Assembly (NCBI RefSeq): GCF_014200435.1
Contig: NZ_JACHBR010000001.1
Coordinates: 2,542,001 to 2,606,000 of the forward strand
Reading direction: 5' to 3'
DNA: 64,000 nucleotides
Source of the DNA: Sphaerisporangium krabiense
GTDB taxonomy: Bacteria > Actinomycetota > Actinomycetes > Streptosporangiales > Streptosporangiaceae
This document shows, one piece after another, positions 55,017 through 64,000 of this stretch. The translations under genes were made by a program, and so were the position numbers. The notes beneath the pieces are model-generated. The model had not been told where the DNA came from. It ran no database searches and saw only the letters and a program-made list of their open reading frames with translations. Position 1 is the stretch's first letter. Every line of letters starts with the position of its first letter.

Positions 55017-57497
55017 TCACGGGGTGAGGACGGGGTCCTGCCGTGCGGCGTGCTCCAGGAAGGCGCGGACCTCCTCCGTCTCCGGAACGCCGAGATCCCC
55101 GTAGAGGGTCGTCGCCTCTCCGGCAAGGTCGCCGACCTCGCGGCGCAGCGCGAGGGCGAGGTCGAGATGGCGCCGGGCCTCCTCCGGACGGCCGGTGCGG
55201 TCGAGCACGAGGGCGAGCACGCCGAGCGCCTGCGCCTCGCCCCAGGTGTCGCCGCCGGTCCGGGTGAGGTCGAGCGCCTGCCTGAGGTGTCGCTCCGCCT
55301 GGGCGTCCTGCCGCCGGCGCAGGGCCACGTTGCCGAGGGCGAGCAGCGCGCGGGCCCGTTCGCACGCCTCCTCGCACACGTCGAGGGCCTGGCGCGCGTG
55401 CTCCTGCGCCGGCTCGTCCTCGCCGAGCCGCCAGTAGGTCCACGCCAGGTCGCTGAGCGCCCGCCCCTGGACCTCGCGGTCGCCGAGCTTGCGGCTGCGC
55501 TGGAGCGCCAGGGTGTGCAGCGTGAGGGCGTCGTCGTGGTGCGCCTGCCGGTCGAGGAAGGGCCGCATGGCCAGGGCCAGCAGGCCGAGGCAGATCTCGG
55601 GCCCGTGGACGGCGGTCGCGATGATGTTGGCGCGCTCGGCGTCGAGCCAGGCGATCGCCTCCGCGGCGTCGCGGATGGGGGCGACGGGGGTGGCGGGCTG
55701 GGGGATGCCCTCCCGCTGGCCGACGCTGTGCGGGAAGAGCCGGTCCATCGCCGCGCGGGAGCGGTGCAGGTAGTAGGCGAGCAGCCGCATGACGGCGCCG
55801 TCGTCCTCGGCGATCGAGCGGGCGTGCTCGCGCAGCAGGTCGTGGAAGGTGTACCGGCCGGGTTCGAGCTGCAGGAGCATGTGGGCGTCGAGGAGCCCTT
55901 CGAGGAGCTCCTCGGCCTCCTCCTCCGGGATCCCGGCCAGCGCCGCGGCGCCGCACGGGTCGATGTCGCGGCCGGGCACCAGCCCGAGCAGGCGGAACAT
56001 GCGCTGCTCGTCCTCGTCGAGCTGCTCGTAGGAGAGGGCGAAGGCGGCGGACACCCCGTCCAACAGCCGGCGATGGTCGCGCAGCCGGCCCGCCAGGTAG
56101 GACACGGTCCAGCGCGGGCGGTGCTGGAGGCGGGCGGCGGACATCCGGATGGCGAGCGGGAGGCGCCCGCACAGGCCCAGCACCTCGCGTACGGCGTCCG
56201 GTTCCCGGCGCGCGCGTTCGCCCACGATCCGTCCGAACAGCTCGGCGGCGTCCTCCTCGCCCAGCAGGTCGACCGACAGCGCGTGGGCGCCGTCCAGGTC
56301 GACCAGACGCCGCCTGCTGGTGACCAGCATGAGCGTGTCGGAGCGTCCCGGCAGCAGCGGACGCACGTGGTCGGCGTCGCGGACGTTGTCCAGGACGGCG
56401 AGCACGCGGCGGTCGGCCAGCTCGGCCCGCCACAGGGCGCTCCGCTCGGCCGGCGTGACCGGGATGCGGTCGGCGGGCACGCCGAGCTGGCGGAGGAGGG
56501 CCTCCAGCGCGGCGGCGGCGTCGATCGGCTCCCGGCCCGCGGTGTGGGCCTGCAGGTCGAGGAAGAGCCGGCCGTCCGGGTAGCGGGCGGCCAGCCGGTG
56601 GGCGACGTGGACGGCGAGCGTGGTCTTGCCGATCCCGGCCATGCCGTCGATCGTGACGACCGCAGGCCCGTGGTGGTCGTCCACGAGCCGCTCCAGCTCG
56701 GCGGTCCGTCCGGAGAAGTCGGGAATGTCGTAAGGCAGGAAGGTGGAGCGACGCGGCGGGCCGGGTACCGCCGGTGCGGGGCCGGCCAGGCGCAGGGCCG
56801 GGTCGTCGGCCAGGACCGCCCGTTCCAGCGCGGTGAAGGCGTGCCCGGGATCAAGGCCCTGCTCGTCCGCCAGGGCCGTACGGTACGAACGGGCCGCCGC
56901 CAGCGCGTCGGCCTGCCGCCCCGCCCGGTGCAGGGCCAGCACGAGGTGGCCGTTCAGCTTCTCGCGCAGCGGGTCGAGGGTCACCTGCGCGGCGAGCTCG
57001 TCGAGCAGCTCGCCGTGCCGTCCGGCGGCCAGCTCGCCCTCCACCAGGCGCTCGTACGCCGACAGCCGCCGGTCGTTCCACAGCTCCCGGACACCGGTGA
57101 CGTAGTGCGCGTGCACGTCCTCCAGCGCCTCGCCGCCCCACAGATCCAGGGCTTCACGCAGCTCGCCGGCGGCCACCAGATCGGTGAACTCCTGCGCGTC
57201 GACCTGTCCGGGCTCCGGCCGCGCCACGTAGCCGCCGGCGCGTGTCTCCAGGAGCCCTCCCGCTCCCGCGCCACGCAGCACCTTGCGGATCGCGGTGATC
57301 GAGGCATGGATCTGCGAGCGGGCGGTGTCGGGCCGGTCGTGGCCCCACATCGCGTCGATCAGCCGCTCGATGCTGATCACCCGGCCGGCGTTGAGCAGCA
57401 GGTAGGCCAGCACGGCCCGGTGACGTGGGGCGATACCCGTCAGCGGCGCGCCGTCGACGGTCATCTGGACGGGGCCGAGCAGGGTGAAGCGCGGCAT
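55017..57497 (-). CDS. SARP/AfsR-type regulator (BTAD, NB-ARC, TPR)
   Basis: 826 aa from ATG 57497, with GGGGGG as ribosome site; an upstream open frame to 58088 is a shadow. The DNA-binding domain (FTLLGPVQMTVDGAPLTGIA, then RHRAVLAYLLLNAG) is followed by the BTAD helices to about residue 245, NB-ARC with P-loop TIDGMAGIGKTTLAVH (about 281), and C-terminal TPRs (RALSDLAWTYWRLGEDEPAQ, LGVLALVLDRTGRPEEARRH). Such proteins activate secondary metabolism or stress genes in response to ATP/ADP state. It is divergent from the AhpD-like gene 108 bp away. Confidence 0.92.
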   Translation of the reverse strand: MPRFTLLGPVQMTVDGAPLTGIAPRHRAVLAYLLLNAGRVISIERLIDAMWGHDRPDTARSQIHASITAIRKVLRGAGAGGLLETRAGGYVARPEPGQVDAQEFTDLVAAGELREALDLWGGEALEDVHAHYVTGVRELWNDRRLSAYERLVEGELAAGRHGELLDELAAQVTLDPLREKLNGHLVLALHRAGRQADALAAARSYRTALADEQGLDPGHAFTALERAVLADDPALRLAGPAPAVPGPPRRSTFLPYDIPDFSGRTAELERLVDDHHGPAVVTIDGMAGIGKTTLAVHVAHRLAARYPDGRLFLDLQAHTAGREPIDAAAALEALLRQLGVPADRIPVTPAERSALWRAELADRRVLAVLDNVRDADHVRPLLPGRSDTLMLVTSRRRLVDLDGAHALSVDLLGEEDAAELFGRIVGERARREPDAVREVLGLCGRLPLAIRMSAARLQHRPRWTVSYLAGRLRDHRRLLDGVSAAFALSYEQLDEDEQRMFRLLGLVPGRDIDPCGAAALAGIPEEEAEELLEGLLDAHMLLQLEPGRYTFHDLLREHARSIAEDDGAVMRLLAYYLHRSRAAMDRLFPHSVGQREGIPQPATPVAPIRDAAEAIAWLDAERANIIATAVHGPEICLGLLALAMRPFLDRQAHHDDALTLHTLALQRSRKLGDREVQGRALSDLAWTYWRLGEDEPAQEHARQALDVCEEACERARALLALGNVALRRRQDAQAERHLRQALDLTRTGGDTWGEAQALGVLALVLDRTGRPEEARRHLDLALALRREVGDLAGEATTLYGDLGVPETEEVRAFLEHAARQDPVLTP

Positions 57498-57605
57498 CGT
57501 CCCCCCATCACCGTCGCATCGTGCGCGCATAGCGAATGTATCAATCCGGACAACCACTCTGTTCTCACACGAAGTTCGCGCAAGACCCCAGACGGAGGAC
57601 ACACC

Positions 57606-58058
57606 ATGGAAGCCCGGATGAAGAACCCCGCCACGATCATCCCCGCCGCGCTGAAGCCGATCCAGGAACTGATGAAGGCCGCGCACTCGCAGGGGCTCCC
57701 CCAGGAGCTCATGGAGATGATCCACCTGCGGGTCAGCCAGATCAACGGCTGCAGCTTCTGCGTCGACGCCGGCCTGAAGGGGCTGCGCAAGCTCGGCGCG
57801 AGCGACGAACGCATCGGCCTGGTCGCCGCCTGGCGCGAAACCCCCTACTACACCGACGCCGAACGGGCCGCGCTGGCGCTGGCCGAGGCCGCGACCCGGC
57901 TGGCCGACCGCACCGACGCCGTCCCCGACGACGTCTGGAACGACGCCGCCGACCACTTCGACGAGCGGCAGCTCGCCTCGATCCTGCTGATGACCGCCGT
58001 CACGAACCTCTTCAACCGACTGAACGCCCCGATCCGCCAGGTCGCAGGAGCGTGGTAA
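57606..58058 (+). CDS. Carboxymuconolactone decarboxylase / AhpD-like protein
   Basis: 150 aa. MIHLRVSQINGCSFCVDAGL contains the CxxC of AhpD-type alkylhydroperoxidases (CSFC, about residues 53-56) with the following conserved region LKGLRKLGASDERIGLVAAW. The C-terminal helix ends LLMTAVTNLFNRLNAP. It probably reduces peroxides as part of a thiol relay. Its divergent position suggests control by the SARP protein. Confidence 0.9.
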   Translation: MEARMKNPATIIPAALKPIQELMKAAHSQGLPQELMEMIHLRVSQINGCSFCVDAGLKGLRKLGASDERIGLVAAWRETPYYTDAERAALALAEAATRLADRTDAVPDDVWNDAADHFDERQLASILLMTAVTNLFNRLNAPIRQVAGAW

Positions 58059-60191: not shown

Positions 60192-60816
60192 GTCACCATC
60201 GTAGGCCGGGCGGTGGCAGAAAAACTGCGCTATATGGCAGCCCCGGCGCTTTCCTGGAGTCGGAGCGCGGGTGAGAATCCTTGAGAACGCGGACATCGCG
60301 TCGATCCCTGAAGGCGGAAGGGAGAACATGACGCTGATTCGGCGAAGGTGAACCGATACGACCGAGCAGGGTGGCCGGCGCACGGTTCCGGATACGGGGC
60401 CGACGACGGGCGCGTGGTCGCGGGGGCGATCACGACGGCGCGTTGCCGCCGGTCGATGTCCGGGGAGAACGGGGTGTACTGACGAGGTTCGGCGCCGACG
60501 GAGGGCTGTGCGGGCGCCGGGCTCCGAGATCGAGCCGATTCTGACGCGGGCGAGCACGCCGGCGTCTTTCGCGTACCGGAAAACGGCGGCGGCCGCATGC
60601 GAAACGCGTCGTCGCTGAACCGGCATGCCCGGCGGAGTGGATTTTCCGGGCTCCCGCGGCCGGTTTTCCGATTCCTTTCACGACGAACGCCGTCGTGCCG
60701 TGGAAACGGTGCGGCGTGCCCTTTCTCGACGGACGGTCACGGGCGCACGCCCGTCCGTCCGGCGGGTTTCCGATGCTTTCCGAGCCAACCCGGAAACAGA
60801 CGAAGGAGAAGGTCTC
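60192..60816. other. Long leader region of the Cys-rich peptide operon
   Basis: 625 bp with no gene supported by a ribosome site. It should contain the promoter of the rightward peptide operon and that of the leftward gene. Confidence 0.45.
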
Positions 60817-61026
60817 ATGACCCGCTTGCTGACCACGTTCGGCGACCGGCTGCTCACGATGGTGGCCCCGCGCGCCGAGGCGGCCGCCGACCCGACGTAC
60901 CTGCAGTGCCAGTGCTGGGACTGCGTGCTCTGGCAGAGGGTCTGCGGCCCGAGCGGCTGCGGAAACTGGTACCCCATCGGCCAGTGCTACGTCGACTGCT
61001 ACATCGAGCGGCCCTGGACCTGCTGA
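60817..61026 (+). CDS. Cysteine-rich peptide precursor (8 Cys, 69 aa)
   Basis: 69 aa from ATG 60817, with AGGAGAAGG at 60804-60812. The leader-like N-terminus MTRLLTTFGDRLLTMVAPRA is followed by EAAADPTYLQCQCWDCVLWQ, then RVCGPSGCGNWYPIGQCYVD and CYIERPWTC. The last 40 residues have eight cysteines and four tryptophans, so four disulfides are possible. No hydrophobic signal peptide is present, so the ABC exporter at 62224 is the likely route out. Followed by MauE, a MauD/TlpA-like protein and that exporter. A new disulfide-rich or crosslinked peptide is inferred; no named family is recognised. Confidence 0.72.
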   Translation: MTRLLTTFGDRLLTMVAPRAEAAADPTYLQCQCWDCVLWQRVCGPSGCGNWYPIGQCYVDCYIERPWTC

Positions 61027-61083
61027 GCAAGCGTCCCGCTCGACACCGAAGACGGCTCCCTTGTTCCGACGGAGGAGGACTCC

Positions 61084-61644
61084 GTGCTCGCATATGTCGC
61101 CTTATGCTGCCGCGTACTGCTCGCGGTCGTGTTCGTCGCCGCCGCCGCGACCAAGGTGCGCGGACGCCGTGACCTGGAGGAGTTCCGCGCGGCCGTGCGC
61201 GGGTTCGGCGTCACGGCCCGGTGGAGTTCCGCCGTGGCCGGCGTGGTCATCGCCCTGGAGTCCGCCGCCGCGGCCGCCATGCTCGTCGACGCCGTCGCGC
61301 CGGCGGGCCTCGGCCTGGCGGCGGGGCTCCTGGCGGCCTTCACGGCCGCGATCGTCTCCGCCCTTCGCAAGGGCACCCCGGCGAACTGCCGGTGTTTCGG
61401 CGCGTCCGCGCGTCCGCTCGGCACGCGGCACGTCGTACGCAACGGAATTCTCCTGCTCGTCGCGGTCGCGGGAGCCGTGACAACGGCGGGCGTGCGCGTG
61501 ACCGCGGACGCGCGGGAGCTCGCCCCGTCGGTCCTCGCCGGGTTCGTCGCCGTCGTCCTCGCGCTGCTGGTGATCGCCTACGACGACCTGGCGTCCCTGG
61601 CGCACCCGCGCGGCGCGAGAGCCGTCCAGAACGCGAACCGATGA
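61084..61644 (+). CDS. MauE-family membrane protein
   Basis: 186 aa with four to five membrane helices (VALCCRVLLAVVFVAAAATK, SSAVAGVVIALESAAAAAML, LGLAAGLLAAFTAAIVSALR) and the motif TPANCRCFGASARPLGT (about residues 99-115), the MauE/DoxX signature. MauE and MauD are needed for disulfide formation in the periplasmic methylamine dehydrogenase small subunit. Here the partner is presumably the Cys-rich peptide encoded 57 bp upstream. GGAGGA precedes the start (GTG 61084). Confidence 0.85.
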   Translation: MLAYVALCCRVLLAVVFVAAAATKVRGRRDLEEFRAAVRGFGVTARWSSAVAGVVIALESAAAAAMLVDAVAPAGLGLAAGLLAAFTAAIVSALRKGTPANCRCFGASARPLGTRHVVRNGILLLVAVAGAVTTAGVRVTADARELAPSVLAGFVAVVLALLVIAYDDLASLAHPRGARAVQNANR

Positions 61645-61672
61645 GATCCGCCGAGGTAAGGAGCCTGATCCG

Positions 61673-62224
61673 ATGAGTTCGGTACTGATCGCCGCGGTCG
61701 TGGTCGTCGGCGTTCTCGGGGTGCTCAACCTGCTCCTGCTGTCCGCCGTGCTGCGCCGGTTGCGCGAGTACGACGAGAAGTGGACGCGGGCGGGCCTGGA
61801 CCGCATCGTGGAGCGGAAGACGGGGCCGCGACCGGGAGAACGCGTCACCGACTTCGCCGCGACGACGATCGACGGCGCCGAGGTCTCCCTCGAGGCGTTG
61901 CCGGGACCGTTGCTGACCGGCTTCTTCTCCACCGGATGCCCCTCCTGCCGCGAGGAGATCCCCGGCTTCGTCCGGCACGCCGCGGACCTGCCGGGCGGCC
62001 GGGCCCAGAGCCTGGTCGTCGTCTCGGGCACGCGCGAGCAGGCGGCCGACATCATCGACGCGGTGCGCGAGGTGGCCCGCGTGGTGGTCGAGCCGCAGGA
62101 CGGCCCGGTGGCGACCGCGTTCGGCGTGCACGGCTCGCCCACCTTCGTCCTGCTCGACCAGGACGGGACCGTCCGCAAGGGCGCGGTCAGCGTCCGCGAG
62201 CTGCTCGCCCCGGCCGCGGTCTGA
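61673..62224 (+). CDS. MauD/TlpA-like membrane-anchored thioredoxin
   Basis: 183 aa. N-terminal anchor VLIAAVVVVGVLGVLNLLLL, then a redoxin domain with FFSTGCPSCREEIPGF (Cys89 and Cys92, a CPSC active site) and GVHGSPTFVLLDQDG with the cis-Pro loop. It should exchange disulfides with exported substrates. Its stop overlaps the ABC gene start (TGATG), so the two are translationally coupled. Confidence 0.9.
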   Translation: MSSVLIAAVVVVGVLGVLNLLLLSAVLRRLREYDEKWTRAGLDRIVERKTGPRPGERVTDFAATTIDGAEVSLEALPGPLLTGFFSTGCPSCREEIPGFVRHAADLPGGRAQSLVVVSGTREQAADIIDAVREVARVVVEPQDGPVATAFGVHGSPTFVLLDQDGTVRKGAVSVRELLAPAAV

Positions 62225-64000
62225 TGACCGGTCCCGCGAGGGGAGGACACGGCGGCGACGCGCCGTGGCGGGAACGCCTCGCCGCCGCGCTGGGCATCGC
62301 CTGGCACGCCCGGCCGGCGCTGCTGTTCGCCTACCTGGCCACCGCGATCGCCGGCGGCGCCACGCCCGTCGGCGTCGCGTGGCTGACCAAGCTCGTGCTC
62401 GACGAACTGGCACGGCGTGAGCGCATCGGCTGGCTCGTCGGCGAGGCCGTGCTGCTGGGCCTTCTCGGGCTGACGGCGGCCACGGTGCCGCAACTCTCCC
62501 GGTACGTCCAGGCGGAACTGGGCCGGGCCACCCGCCTTCGCGCGCAGGAACGGCTCTACGAGGCGCTGTCCCGGCTCCAGGGCCTGGCGCGGTTCGACGA
62601 CCCGGCGTTCTTCGACCGTATCGGCCTCGCCCAGCAGGCGAGCGGGATGGCGCCGCAGATGGTCCTGGAGGCGTCGCTCGGCGGGCTGCGTGCGGCGGTC
62701 ACCATGGCGGGTTTCCTCGGCTCGCTGCTCGCGGTGCGCCCGGCGATGGCCGCGGTCGTGCTGGTGTCCGCCATCCCCGCCGTGGCGGCCGAACTGGCGC
62801 TGAGCGGGAAGCGCGGGCAGATGCTGTGGACGACCAGCCCGATGGCGCGCCGTCAGATGTTCTACTCCCAGCTCATGACCGACAGGACCGCGGCCAAGGA
62901 GATCCGCCTGTTCGGCCTCGGCGACTTCCTGCGGCTGCGGATGCTCGCGGAGCTGCGCTCCCTGCACGGCGAGGAGCGCCGTATGGACCGGCGGGTGTTC
63001 GGCGTCCAGGTCGGCCTCGCGGCCCTGACGGCGCTGGTCTCGGGCGCCGGCCTGGTGTGGGGCGTCCTGCTGGCCCGCGCGGGCGAGCTGACCCCCGGCG
63101 ACGTGATCGTCTTCGTGGCGGCGGTCGCGGGCGTCCAGGCCGGGCTGTCGGGGCTGGTCACGCAGCTCGCGAGCGGGCACCAGGCGTTGCTCAGGTTCGG
63201 CCACTTCGTCGACCTGCTCAAGGCCGCCCCCGACCTCGCCACGCCGCTCGCGCCGGCGCCGGCCAGGCCGCTGCGTGACGCGATCGAGCTGAGGGACGTC
63301 TGGTTCCGCTACGGCGACGACCAGCCGTGGGTGCTGCGCGGCGTCGACCTGCGCGTCCCCCGCGGCGGGCTGGTGGCCGTGGTGGGGCTGAACGGCGCCG
63401 GCAAGAGCACCTTGGTGAAGCTGCTCTGCCGGCTGTACGAGCCGACCCGCGGTTCGATCACCTGGGACGGCGTGGACATCCGCGACATCCCGGTCGCCGA
63501 CCTGCGTGCGCGGATCGGCGCCGTCTTCCAGGACCACATGAACTACGACCTCAGCGCCGCCGAGAACATCGGCGTCGGCGACCTCGCCGCGCTCCGGGAC
63601 CGCGACCGCGTCCGCGCCGCCGCCGCCTCCGCCGAGGTCCACGAGACCATCACCGGCCTGCCCTACGGATACGACACGCTGCTCAGCCGCATGTTCTTCA
63701 TGAACTCCCCCTCCGACGGGGAGAAGGCCGGGGTGACGCTGTCGGGCGGGCAATGGCAGAGGATCGCCCTGGCCCGCGGCCTCCTGCGCGCACGGCCCGA
63801 CCTGCTGATCCTGGACGAGCCCAGCTCGGGCCTGGACGCGGAGGCTGAGCACACCGTTCACCGGCGGCTCGCCGAACACCGCCGAGGAACGACGGGCGTC
63901 GTCATCTCGCACCGGCTGAACGCCGTACGTCCCGCCGACCACATCGTCGTCCTGGACGGCGGCCGGATCACCGAGGAGGGCACCCACGAGGAGCTGATGG
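62224..64000 (+). CDS. ABC exporter, fused permease and ATPase (3' end outside window)
   Basis: At least 592 codons from ATG 62224. The first ~330 residues hold a six-helix ABC-type exporter domain (LLFAYLATAIAGGATPVGVA, VTMAGFLGSLLAVRPAMAAV). The ATPase domain shows Walker A VGLNGAGKSTLVKLL (about residues 386-400), ABC signature LSGGQWQRIALARG (about 506-519), Walker B LLILDEPSSGLD (about 526-537) and the H-loop ISHRLN. No peptidase C39 domain is present, so leader removal would need another enzyme. It is coupled to the thioredoxin gene and is the likely exporter of the Cys-rich peptide. Confidence 0.93.
   Translation, partial: MTGPARGGHGGDAPWRERLAAALGIAWHARPALLFAYLATAIAGGATPVGVAWLTKLVLDELARRERIGWLVGEAVLLGLLGLTAATVPQLSRYVQAELGRATRLRAQERLYEALSRLQGLARFDDPAFFDRIGLAQQASGMAPQMVLEASLGGLRAAVTMAGFLGSLLAVRPAMAAVVLVSAIPAVAAELALSGKRGQMLWTTSPMARRQMFYSQLMTDRTAAKEIRLFGLGDFLRLRMLAELRSLHGEERRMDRRVFGVQVGLAALTALVSGAGLVWGVLLARAGELTPGDVIVFVAAVAGVQAGLSGLVTQLASGHQALLRFGHFVDLLKAAPDLATPLAPAPARPLRDAIELRDVWFRYGDDQPWVLRGVDLRVPRGGLVAVVGLNGAGKSTLVKLLCRLYEPTRGSITWDGVDIRDIPVADLRARIGAVFQDHMNYDLSAAENIGVGDLAALRDRDRVRAAAASAEVHETITGLPYGYDTLLSRMFFMNSPSDGEKAGVTLSGGQWQRIALARGLLRARPDLLILDEPSSGLDAEAEHTVHRRLAEHRRGTTGVVISHRLNAVRPADHIVVLDGGRITEEGTHEELM

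Follow-up and report, generated by a model that had tools for sequence, protein, structure and literature searches.

A MauE/MauD-type gene cassette in Sphaerisporangium krabiense predicted to produce a secreted disulfide-rich peptide

In the actinomycete Sphaerisporangium krabiense, a short gene for a cysteine-rich peptide is followed by genes for a MauE-type membrane protein, a MauD/TlpA-like thioredoxin and an ATP-binding cassette (ABC) exporter, which raises the question of what such proteins do for a small peptide when methylamine dehydrogenase, the enzyme whose small subunit MauE and MauD are known to oxidise, is missing. We addressed this question in a stretch of 64,000 nucleotides (contig NZ_JACHBR010000001.1, positions 2,542,001 to 2,606,000 of the forward strand), further referred to as the window, for which a first-pass annotation had proposed an undescribed peptide with its own disulfide-forming and export machinery. 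With a probability of about 0.78, we read the locus as a full set of genes for making and secreting a disulfide-rich peptide of the bacteriocin type, or more generally a ribosomally synthesised and post-translationally modified peptide (RiPP), which would be oxidised by the MauE/MauD pair, exported by the ABC transporter and trimmed by a signal peptidase of family S26. This reading draws on gene content, homology, a tight operon, co-occurrence of the genes, the parity of the cysteines, a leader with an AxA motif and a variable core, and from these we infer the redox step, the order of the steps and the substrates of the ABC transporter and the peptidase.

Which genes does the locus contain? 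The precursor gene (60817..61026, plus strand) starts with an ATG located eight bases downstream of an AAGGAG ribosome-binding site (60803..60808, plus strand) and encodes a peptide of 69 amino acids (aa) with eight cysteines and four tryptophans, MTRLLTTFGDRLLTMVAPRAEAAADPTYLQCQCWDCVLWQRVCGPSGCGNWYPIGQCYVDCYIERPWTC. The existence of this precursor, as first annotated, is borne out by its coding-like codon usage and by an orthologue at another locus, L037, which shares 58% identity (E 8.5e-28) with all eight cysteines in register; among the 473 open reading frames of at least 40 aa in the window, it is the sole one whose last 45 residues contain at least eight cysteines. The predicted 24-aa leader, MTRLLTTFGDRLLTMVAPRAEAAA (60817..60888, plus strand), carries the leader motif of the family and would be cut by the S26 peptidase after residue 24, leaving a core of 45 aa, DPTYLQCQCWDCVLWQRVCGPSGCGNWYPIGQCYVDCYIERPWTC (60889..61023, plus strand), which holds all eight cysteines and has a net charge of -2. 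Neither precursor nor core has a sequence relative in Pfam, NCBIfam or the PDB, defensin and knottin folds included, and AlphaFold modelling gave structures too poor for a fold search, for the peptide (pLDDT 48.7) as well as for MauE (pLDDT 53.9).

The genes that follow on the plus strand are, in order, those for MauE, the MauD-like protein, the ABC exporter and the S26 peptidase, the next gene downstream lying on the opposite strand. The MauE homologue (61084..61644, 186 aa, about five membrane helices) matches PF07291 with E 8e-26 (91.2 bits versus a cut-off of 27) and has a CRCFG motif whose two cysteine codons fall in 61387-61395. The membrane-anchored thioredoxin (61673..62224, 183 aa) matches PF00578 (AhpC-TSA, E 7e-11) and PF08534 (Redoxin) and carries its CPSC at 61937-61948. 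Because it scores only 21.4 bits with the MauD equivalog TIGR02661, far below the cut-off of 188.6, "MauD/TlpA-like" is an apt description of this distant MauD homologue and plain "MauD" would be too strong. The half-size ABC exporter, with fused membrane and ATPase parts (617 aa, PF00005 E 1.7e-29), has its start at 62224, where it overlaps the stop codon of the thioredoxin gene, and runs to the window edge at 64000 and on to contig position 2606077, 77 bases beyond the window (L006 4224-6077). The signal peptidase I gene lies outside the window at contig 2606116-2606592 (L006 6116-6592) and encodes 158 aa, with matches to PF10502 (E 6e-17) and TIGR02227 (59.3 bits versus a cut-off of 47). 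All genes named in the first-pass annotation were thus recovered, the tight operon included; what it had missed are the S26 peptidase past the window edge, the leader motif with its AxA end and the wider family. No C39 peptidase domain is present in the full-length ABC protein and the precursor has an AxA instead of a GG site, so that the locus falls outside the class of double-glycine bacteriocins with C39 (PCAT) exporters; given an ABC protein lacking this protease domain, the S26 enzyme would be the natural leader protease. Across the family the catalytic motifs are well kept: CxCFG in 68 of 69 MauE proteins, CxxC in 75 of 77 MauD-like proteins and G-x-SM-x-P in all 70 S26 peptidases.

Do peptide and machinery occur together elsewhere? 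With a profile built from 20 precursors, 395 genomes of the class (actinomycetes) were searched at a threshold of E<=1e-3, and all 54 matches were fetched or mapped. Of these, 52 lie in cassettes that hold MauE, MauD or both together with further genes of the set, or 46 of 48 after removal of six profile members; the exceptions are L088, where the nearest 5 kb or so contain no partner gene, and L095, which has S26 with a MacB/FtsX-like ABC system. As a genome of about 8 Mb has only a few MauE genes, the share of peptide matches expected beside one by chance is far below a few per cent. Weaker matches, between E 0.001 and 0.01, lack the cassette in five of eight cases and are mostly chance. Starting from MauE, a precursor-type peptide was found at 29 of 30 chosen loci (exception L040). 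The annotation had named homologues with conserved cysteines next to MauE, MauD and ABC genes as support for its proposal, and these are what we found, with L037 keeping all eight cysteines; homologues occurring apart from these genes, which it had considered fatal, are confined to the exceptions just given.

This association extends over a wide range of precursors. Two close relatives of the window's MauE (59 and 57% identity, at L037 and L038) share the whole operon: at L037 two tandem precursors are present, one of them the eight-cysteine orthologue, and at L038 the machinery proteins share 57-73% identity with those of the window, and the precursor is alike in its leader only, its core being unrelated. 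Further MauE loci have the same cassette with a shuffled gene order and precursors of 6 to 12 cysteines. Within the taxonomic family to which the window belongs, the MauE query finds matches in 124 of the 251 genomes searched, and the peptide profile matches lie in this family (19 genomes, that of the window included) and in a second one with genomes of 6-10 Mb, probably the Streptomycetaceae (four genomes with cassettes). In a phylum-wide sample of 396 genomes, a single member of the second family matched besides the own genome, and neither a collection of named genomes nor a plasmid search gave a match. The own genome has about five cassettes with seven precursors, located by profile matches and mapping at contig positions 342k (two), 2602817, 4235807, 5821663, 5825554 and 5828682, the window precursor being the best profile match. 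Comparable sets with ever-varying peptides are present in dozens of actinomycete genomes, and together this looks like a large family of natural disulfide-rich peptides. A query with the lone peptide was less informative: beyond the own genome it gave four weak matches (L002-L005), which were rejected as chance, lying in unrelated neighbourhoods without the cassette; only the neighbours of MauE or a profile bring the family to light.

Next to the standard cassette, some variants were observed. At L095 (1050-5358), the precursor and S26 gene stand with a MacB/FtsX-like ABC system that replaces MauE/MauD and the usual exporter (compare L121 and L145), and at L121 a precursor related to that of L095 retains both MauE and MauD. 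In L103 and L153 two different MauD-like thioredoxins flank the precursor, one on each side.

How is the precursor built? An alignment of 72 distinct precursors gave the leader motif L-x2-[LF][GAS]DR[LMI]L-x3-[VA]P-x3-AxA, with L-x2-LGDRLL-x3-VP-x3-AxA as main form. Counted from the conserved P, position -8 is D in 65 of these sequences, position -7 is R in 62 and position -5 is either L or V in 66. Relative to a cut site placed by script, Ala is found at -1 in 70 and at -3 in 61 of the 72, which matches the signal peptidase I consensus. Some placements, few in number, are one residue off; for the window, where the script cut one residue earlier, alignment with L037 (PRAEATA/DPTY, cut at the stroke) sets the site behind residue 24. 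The leader, an amphipathic stretch of weak hydrophobicity, has a best 10-residue hydropathy of 0.92 in the window and 0.96 on average in the family, which is low for a Sec signal peptide, and on this hydropathy measure it appears unlike a Sec leader. Random pairs share on average 43% identity at leader positions versus 25% at core residues other than cysteine (23% after shuffling): outside the cysteines, similarity between cores has dropped to about what chance would give, while the leader is conserved. The predicted arrangement, with a conserved leader, a variable core and adjoining maturation and export genes, corresponds to the general layout of RiPPs.

Do the cysteines pair? Over 77 distinct precursors, the core contains 6 (43 precursors), 8 (25), 10 (4), 7 (2), 12 (1), 4 (1) or 9 (1) cysteines, so that the number is even in 74 of 77 (binomial P about 5e-19) and, after stricter thinning of similar precursors, in 58 of 61 (P 1.6e-14), P values that are indicative as related sequences are not fully independent. 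Evenness is demanded by disulfides and not by thioethers or metal sites, and parity hence supports disulfides. This strong bias also speaks against a metallothionein-like or metallophore peptide that would be exported as a thiol, its cysteines being kept reduced by the thioredoxin. The many cysteines would suit such a peptide, a cytoplasm-facing MauD might serve as a reductase and a DoxX-like protein, HvfX, is known in clusters for copper-binding RiPPs (a weak match here, 13.9 bits versus a cut-off of 80), but no MNIO-type enzyme was noticed in the cassettes and the cysteine spacings are too variable for a shared metal site, which makes metal binding an improbable function. Two loci show departures from evenness that are worth recording by themselves. 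The fifth cassette of the own genome (G000:C1:335000-352000; L152 7055-7537) has tandem precursors with 7 and 9 cysteines and a shortened leader, possibly forming dimers or keeping a free thiol, and at L037 (6763-6966) a seven-cysteine tandem paralogue lies beside the eight-cysteine orthologue, possibly giving a two-peptide product.

Several points weigh against our reading of the locus. Three precursors have an odd number of cysteines (7 or 9), some cassettes (L089 and L104) have no MauE nearby, and the peptide of L095 has neither redox gene and a different type of ABC system. Moreover, the genes for a DoxX protein and a thioredoxin-like protein in the clusters of the lasso peptides sviceucin and MS-271 are dispensable for disulfides, the latter gene being important for sviceucin export (PMC9266682), so that MauE and MauD might have a different role in our cassette. 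This precedent, together with the Tyr/Trp-rich cores (aromatic fraction 0.144), would fit cysteines that are crosslinked differently, as thioethers to aromatic residues or residues of another kind, through an enzyme whose gene lies elsewhere, with MauE and MauD acting in export only. A radical SAM enzyme, P450, YcaO or lanthionine enzyme was however not noticed regularly in the cassettes and thioethers do not require even cysteine numbers, and we regard this explanation as quite unlikely. The co-occurrence of the genes and the even cysteine counts back the proposal of a peptide with dedicated disulfide-forming and export machinery, for which disulfides are the predicted chemistry.

Might the peptide instead be an enzyme subunit? 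MauE of the window shares 34.5% identity over 139 aa with that of Paracoccus denitrificans (L154), which the family profile matches with E 2e-22, and the thioredoxin is 28.6% identical over 189 aa to the MauD of the same cluster. In that cluster, as here, MauE with CxCF and MauD with CxxC adjoin a small cysteine-rich protein, MauA, and this homology, together with the richness of our peptide in cysteine and tryptophan, would be explained if the peptide were the small subunit of an undescribed dehydrogenase that matures, like MauA, to a tryptophylquinone cofactor. Against this, neither MauA (PF02975) nor MauB (PF06433) was found in the genome of the window with models that were both positive in the Paracoccus control, in agreement with the first-pass annotation, which had noted the absence of the other methylamine dehydrogenase subunits. 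The similarity of the peptide to MauA is at chance level (blastp E 5.3), tryptophan is not conserved across the family and the cores vary too much for a conserved enzyme subunit. A quinone-type product was considered as a candidate in its own right and rejected: two of the four tryptophans are replaced in the L037 orthologue and tryptophan is no family feature, so that the tryptophan crosslinks that had also been suggested find no support. A subunit of a larger enzyme, known or undescribed, is therefore very improbable. From these comparisons, the redox pair is homologous to MauE/MauD and its presumed substrate is not homologous to MauA, which in Paracoccus is a subunit of a large enzyme and carries a twin-arginine-like signal; the mau cluster moreover lacks the ABC exporter and S26 peptidase that are present here.

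On which side of the membrane would the disulfides be formed? In all 77 MauD homologues, positive charge follows the membrane helix (mean K+R 3.61 after versus 0.09 before), and in the family MauE proteins the CxCFG loop has a net charge of +4.9 and the first loop of +4.1, with +0.15 in the hairpin between them. By the positive-inside rule, this layout would place both the thioredoxin domain and the CxC loop of MauE on the cytoplasmic side. The Paracoccus mau proteins have the same charge layout around their membrane helices: in that cluster (L154 3105-4878) the charges of the genuine MauE and MauD likewise point to cytoplasm-facing cysteines, and the signal of MauA is twin-arginine-like (TSRRSVIGKLG), of the kind expected for a protein that is exported once folded. 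The usual extracytoplasmic placement of genuine MauE/MauD may thus merit a test. The charge layout, the Paracoccus likeness and the MauA signal together suggest oxidation before export, and we lean, on the charges, towards oxidation at the cytoplasmic face. TlpA/DsbE-type thioredoxin domains are usually extracytoplasmic, with which the cytoplasmic placement is in conflict, and this counts against the proposed order of steps. The same established knowledge favours a different order, in which the ABC transporter exports the reduced precursor and MauE/MauD oxidise it at the outer face in a DsbA-like manner. A precedent is the staphylococcal TMcin, whose gene cluster encodes a DsbA-family protein that oxidises the peptide at the membrane (PMC13252029), whereas the unanimous MauD charges, the positive CxCFG loop and the Paracoccus layout with its twin-arginine-like signal all put the cysteines inside; we consider outside oxidation a serious contender with a chance somewhat short of even. 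Building on cytoplasmic oxidation, a broader and more speculative idea, which we hold to be doubtful on balance, is that MauE/MauD-type pairs are cytoplasm-facing membrane oxidases that install three to six disulfides before ABC export of a pre-folded peptide, that the same applies to MauA, and that actinobacteria would thereby have a dedicated disulfide-forming system for a large family of disulfide-rich RiPPs.

In the sequence of events that we propose, the 69-aa precursor would be made and its 24-aa leader recognised, after which MauE and the MauD-like thioredoxin, as a membrane redox pair, would turn the eight core cysteines into four disulfides, probably at the cytoplasmic face. The ABC half-transporter would then, as a homodimer, export the peptide with the leader attached, and the dedicated S26 peptidase would cut the leader outside the membrane after A-x-A, freeing a 45-aa product (DPTYLQ...PWTC) with four disulfides and a corresponding loss of 8 Da.

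What would such a product be for? Genes resembling Streptomyces antibiotic regulatory proteins (SARPs) are present at 35 of 71 loci versus about 5% expected (41 such genes in the own 8.5 Mb), an approximate comparison as the search methods differ. It is from the fast-changing core, the many cassettes per genome and these frequent SARP regulators that we derive a role in specialised metabolism, the product probably being an antagonistic or signalling metabolite. That it is antimicrobial has even odds in our estimation; the core charge of -2, versus a family mean of +1.6, indicates that it is no typical cationic antimicrobial, and no immunity gene was recognised. Disulfide-rich peptides, such as defensins, conotoxins and cyclotides, are familiar from animals and plants, and to our knowledge dedicated bacterial routes to them are few. 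The family would provide a genetically compact pathway that combines one common type of leader with 77 or more distinct cores, and could serve as a library for antibiotics or signalling molecules and as a tool for producing disulfide-rich peptides. The function and membrane side of MauE/MauD, an old question, could be addressed with a small peptide as substrate rather than with a quinone enzyme, and the leader motif with the four-gene cassette would form a simple rule for genome mining.

Around the operon, scans of the locus for promoters and terminators detected nothing, and PADLOC matches of the ABC protein were set aside as generic ATPase similarity. A SARP/AfsR-type regulator is encoded on the minus strand at 55017-57800, 3-6 kb upstream of the precursor, with unrelated genes in between, so its link to the operon is uncertain. 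About 7 kb past the operon (L006 13546-17939), a minus-strand run of genes for peptidoglycan amidase-like and tail-like proteins is probably a prophage or phage-tail-like cluster.

How does the cassette relate to known systems? Closest are three candidate families from Streptomyces listed by decRiPPter, which have mauE, in one case also mauD, next to precursors of at least 8 cysteines and for which RiPP maturation was argued (Kloosterman et al. 2020, PMC7794033). In the portion of that report devoted to these families, a transporter, a peptidase and a regulator are likewise nearby and the rest of the mau cluster is absent; the entries are listings, and the leader motif, the AxA site, a signal peptidase role, the parity and the wider distribution are not among the features given there. 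In gene content our locus agrees with them, having mauE, with a mauD-like gene, beside a precursor of at least 8 cysteines and no other mau genes. The label "undescribed" in the first-pass annotation accordingly needs qualification: the idea is already contained in these decRiPPter families, while searches of the open literature for a characterised member turned up nothing but that listing, subscription papers and supplements being outside the scope. The class I lasso clusters of sviceucin, MS-271 and humidimycin resemble the cassette in their actinomycete hosts, a DoxX-family membrane protein and a CxxC thioredoxin-like protein (SviE/SviF for sviceucin), ABC exporters and disulfides in the product, but production of a lasso peptide depends on a B1/B2 protease together with a C cyclase, and its 4 cysteines fall within about 21 residues; neither a lasso cyclase nor a B1/B2 leader protease was recognised in the operon or its neighbours. 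TMcin from Staphylococcus shares a cluster-encoded leader protease, a thiol oxidoreductase, an ABC exporter and a disulfide-bearing peptide, and differs in being a transmembrane peptide with one disulfide, a DsbA-type oxidase and an S2P-type protease. Finally, cinnamycin-type lanthipeptides are, like our peptide, made from actinomycete precursors with an AxA-ended leader (AFA or AYA), for which cleavage by signal peptidase I was proposed (PMC12837462); there a general signal peptidase and lanthionine chemistry take the place of the dedicated S26 peptidase and the disulfides predicted here.

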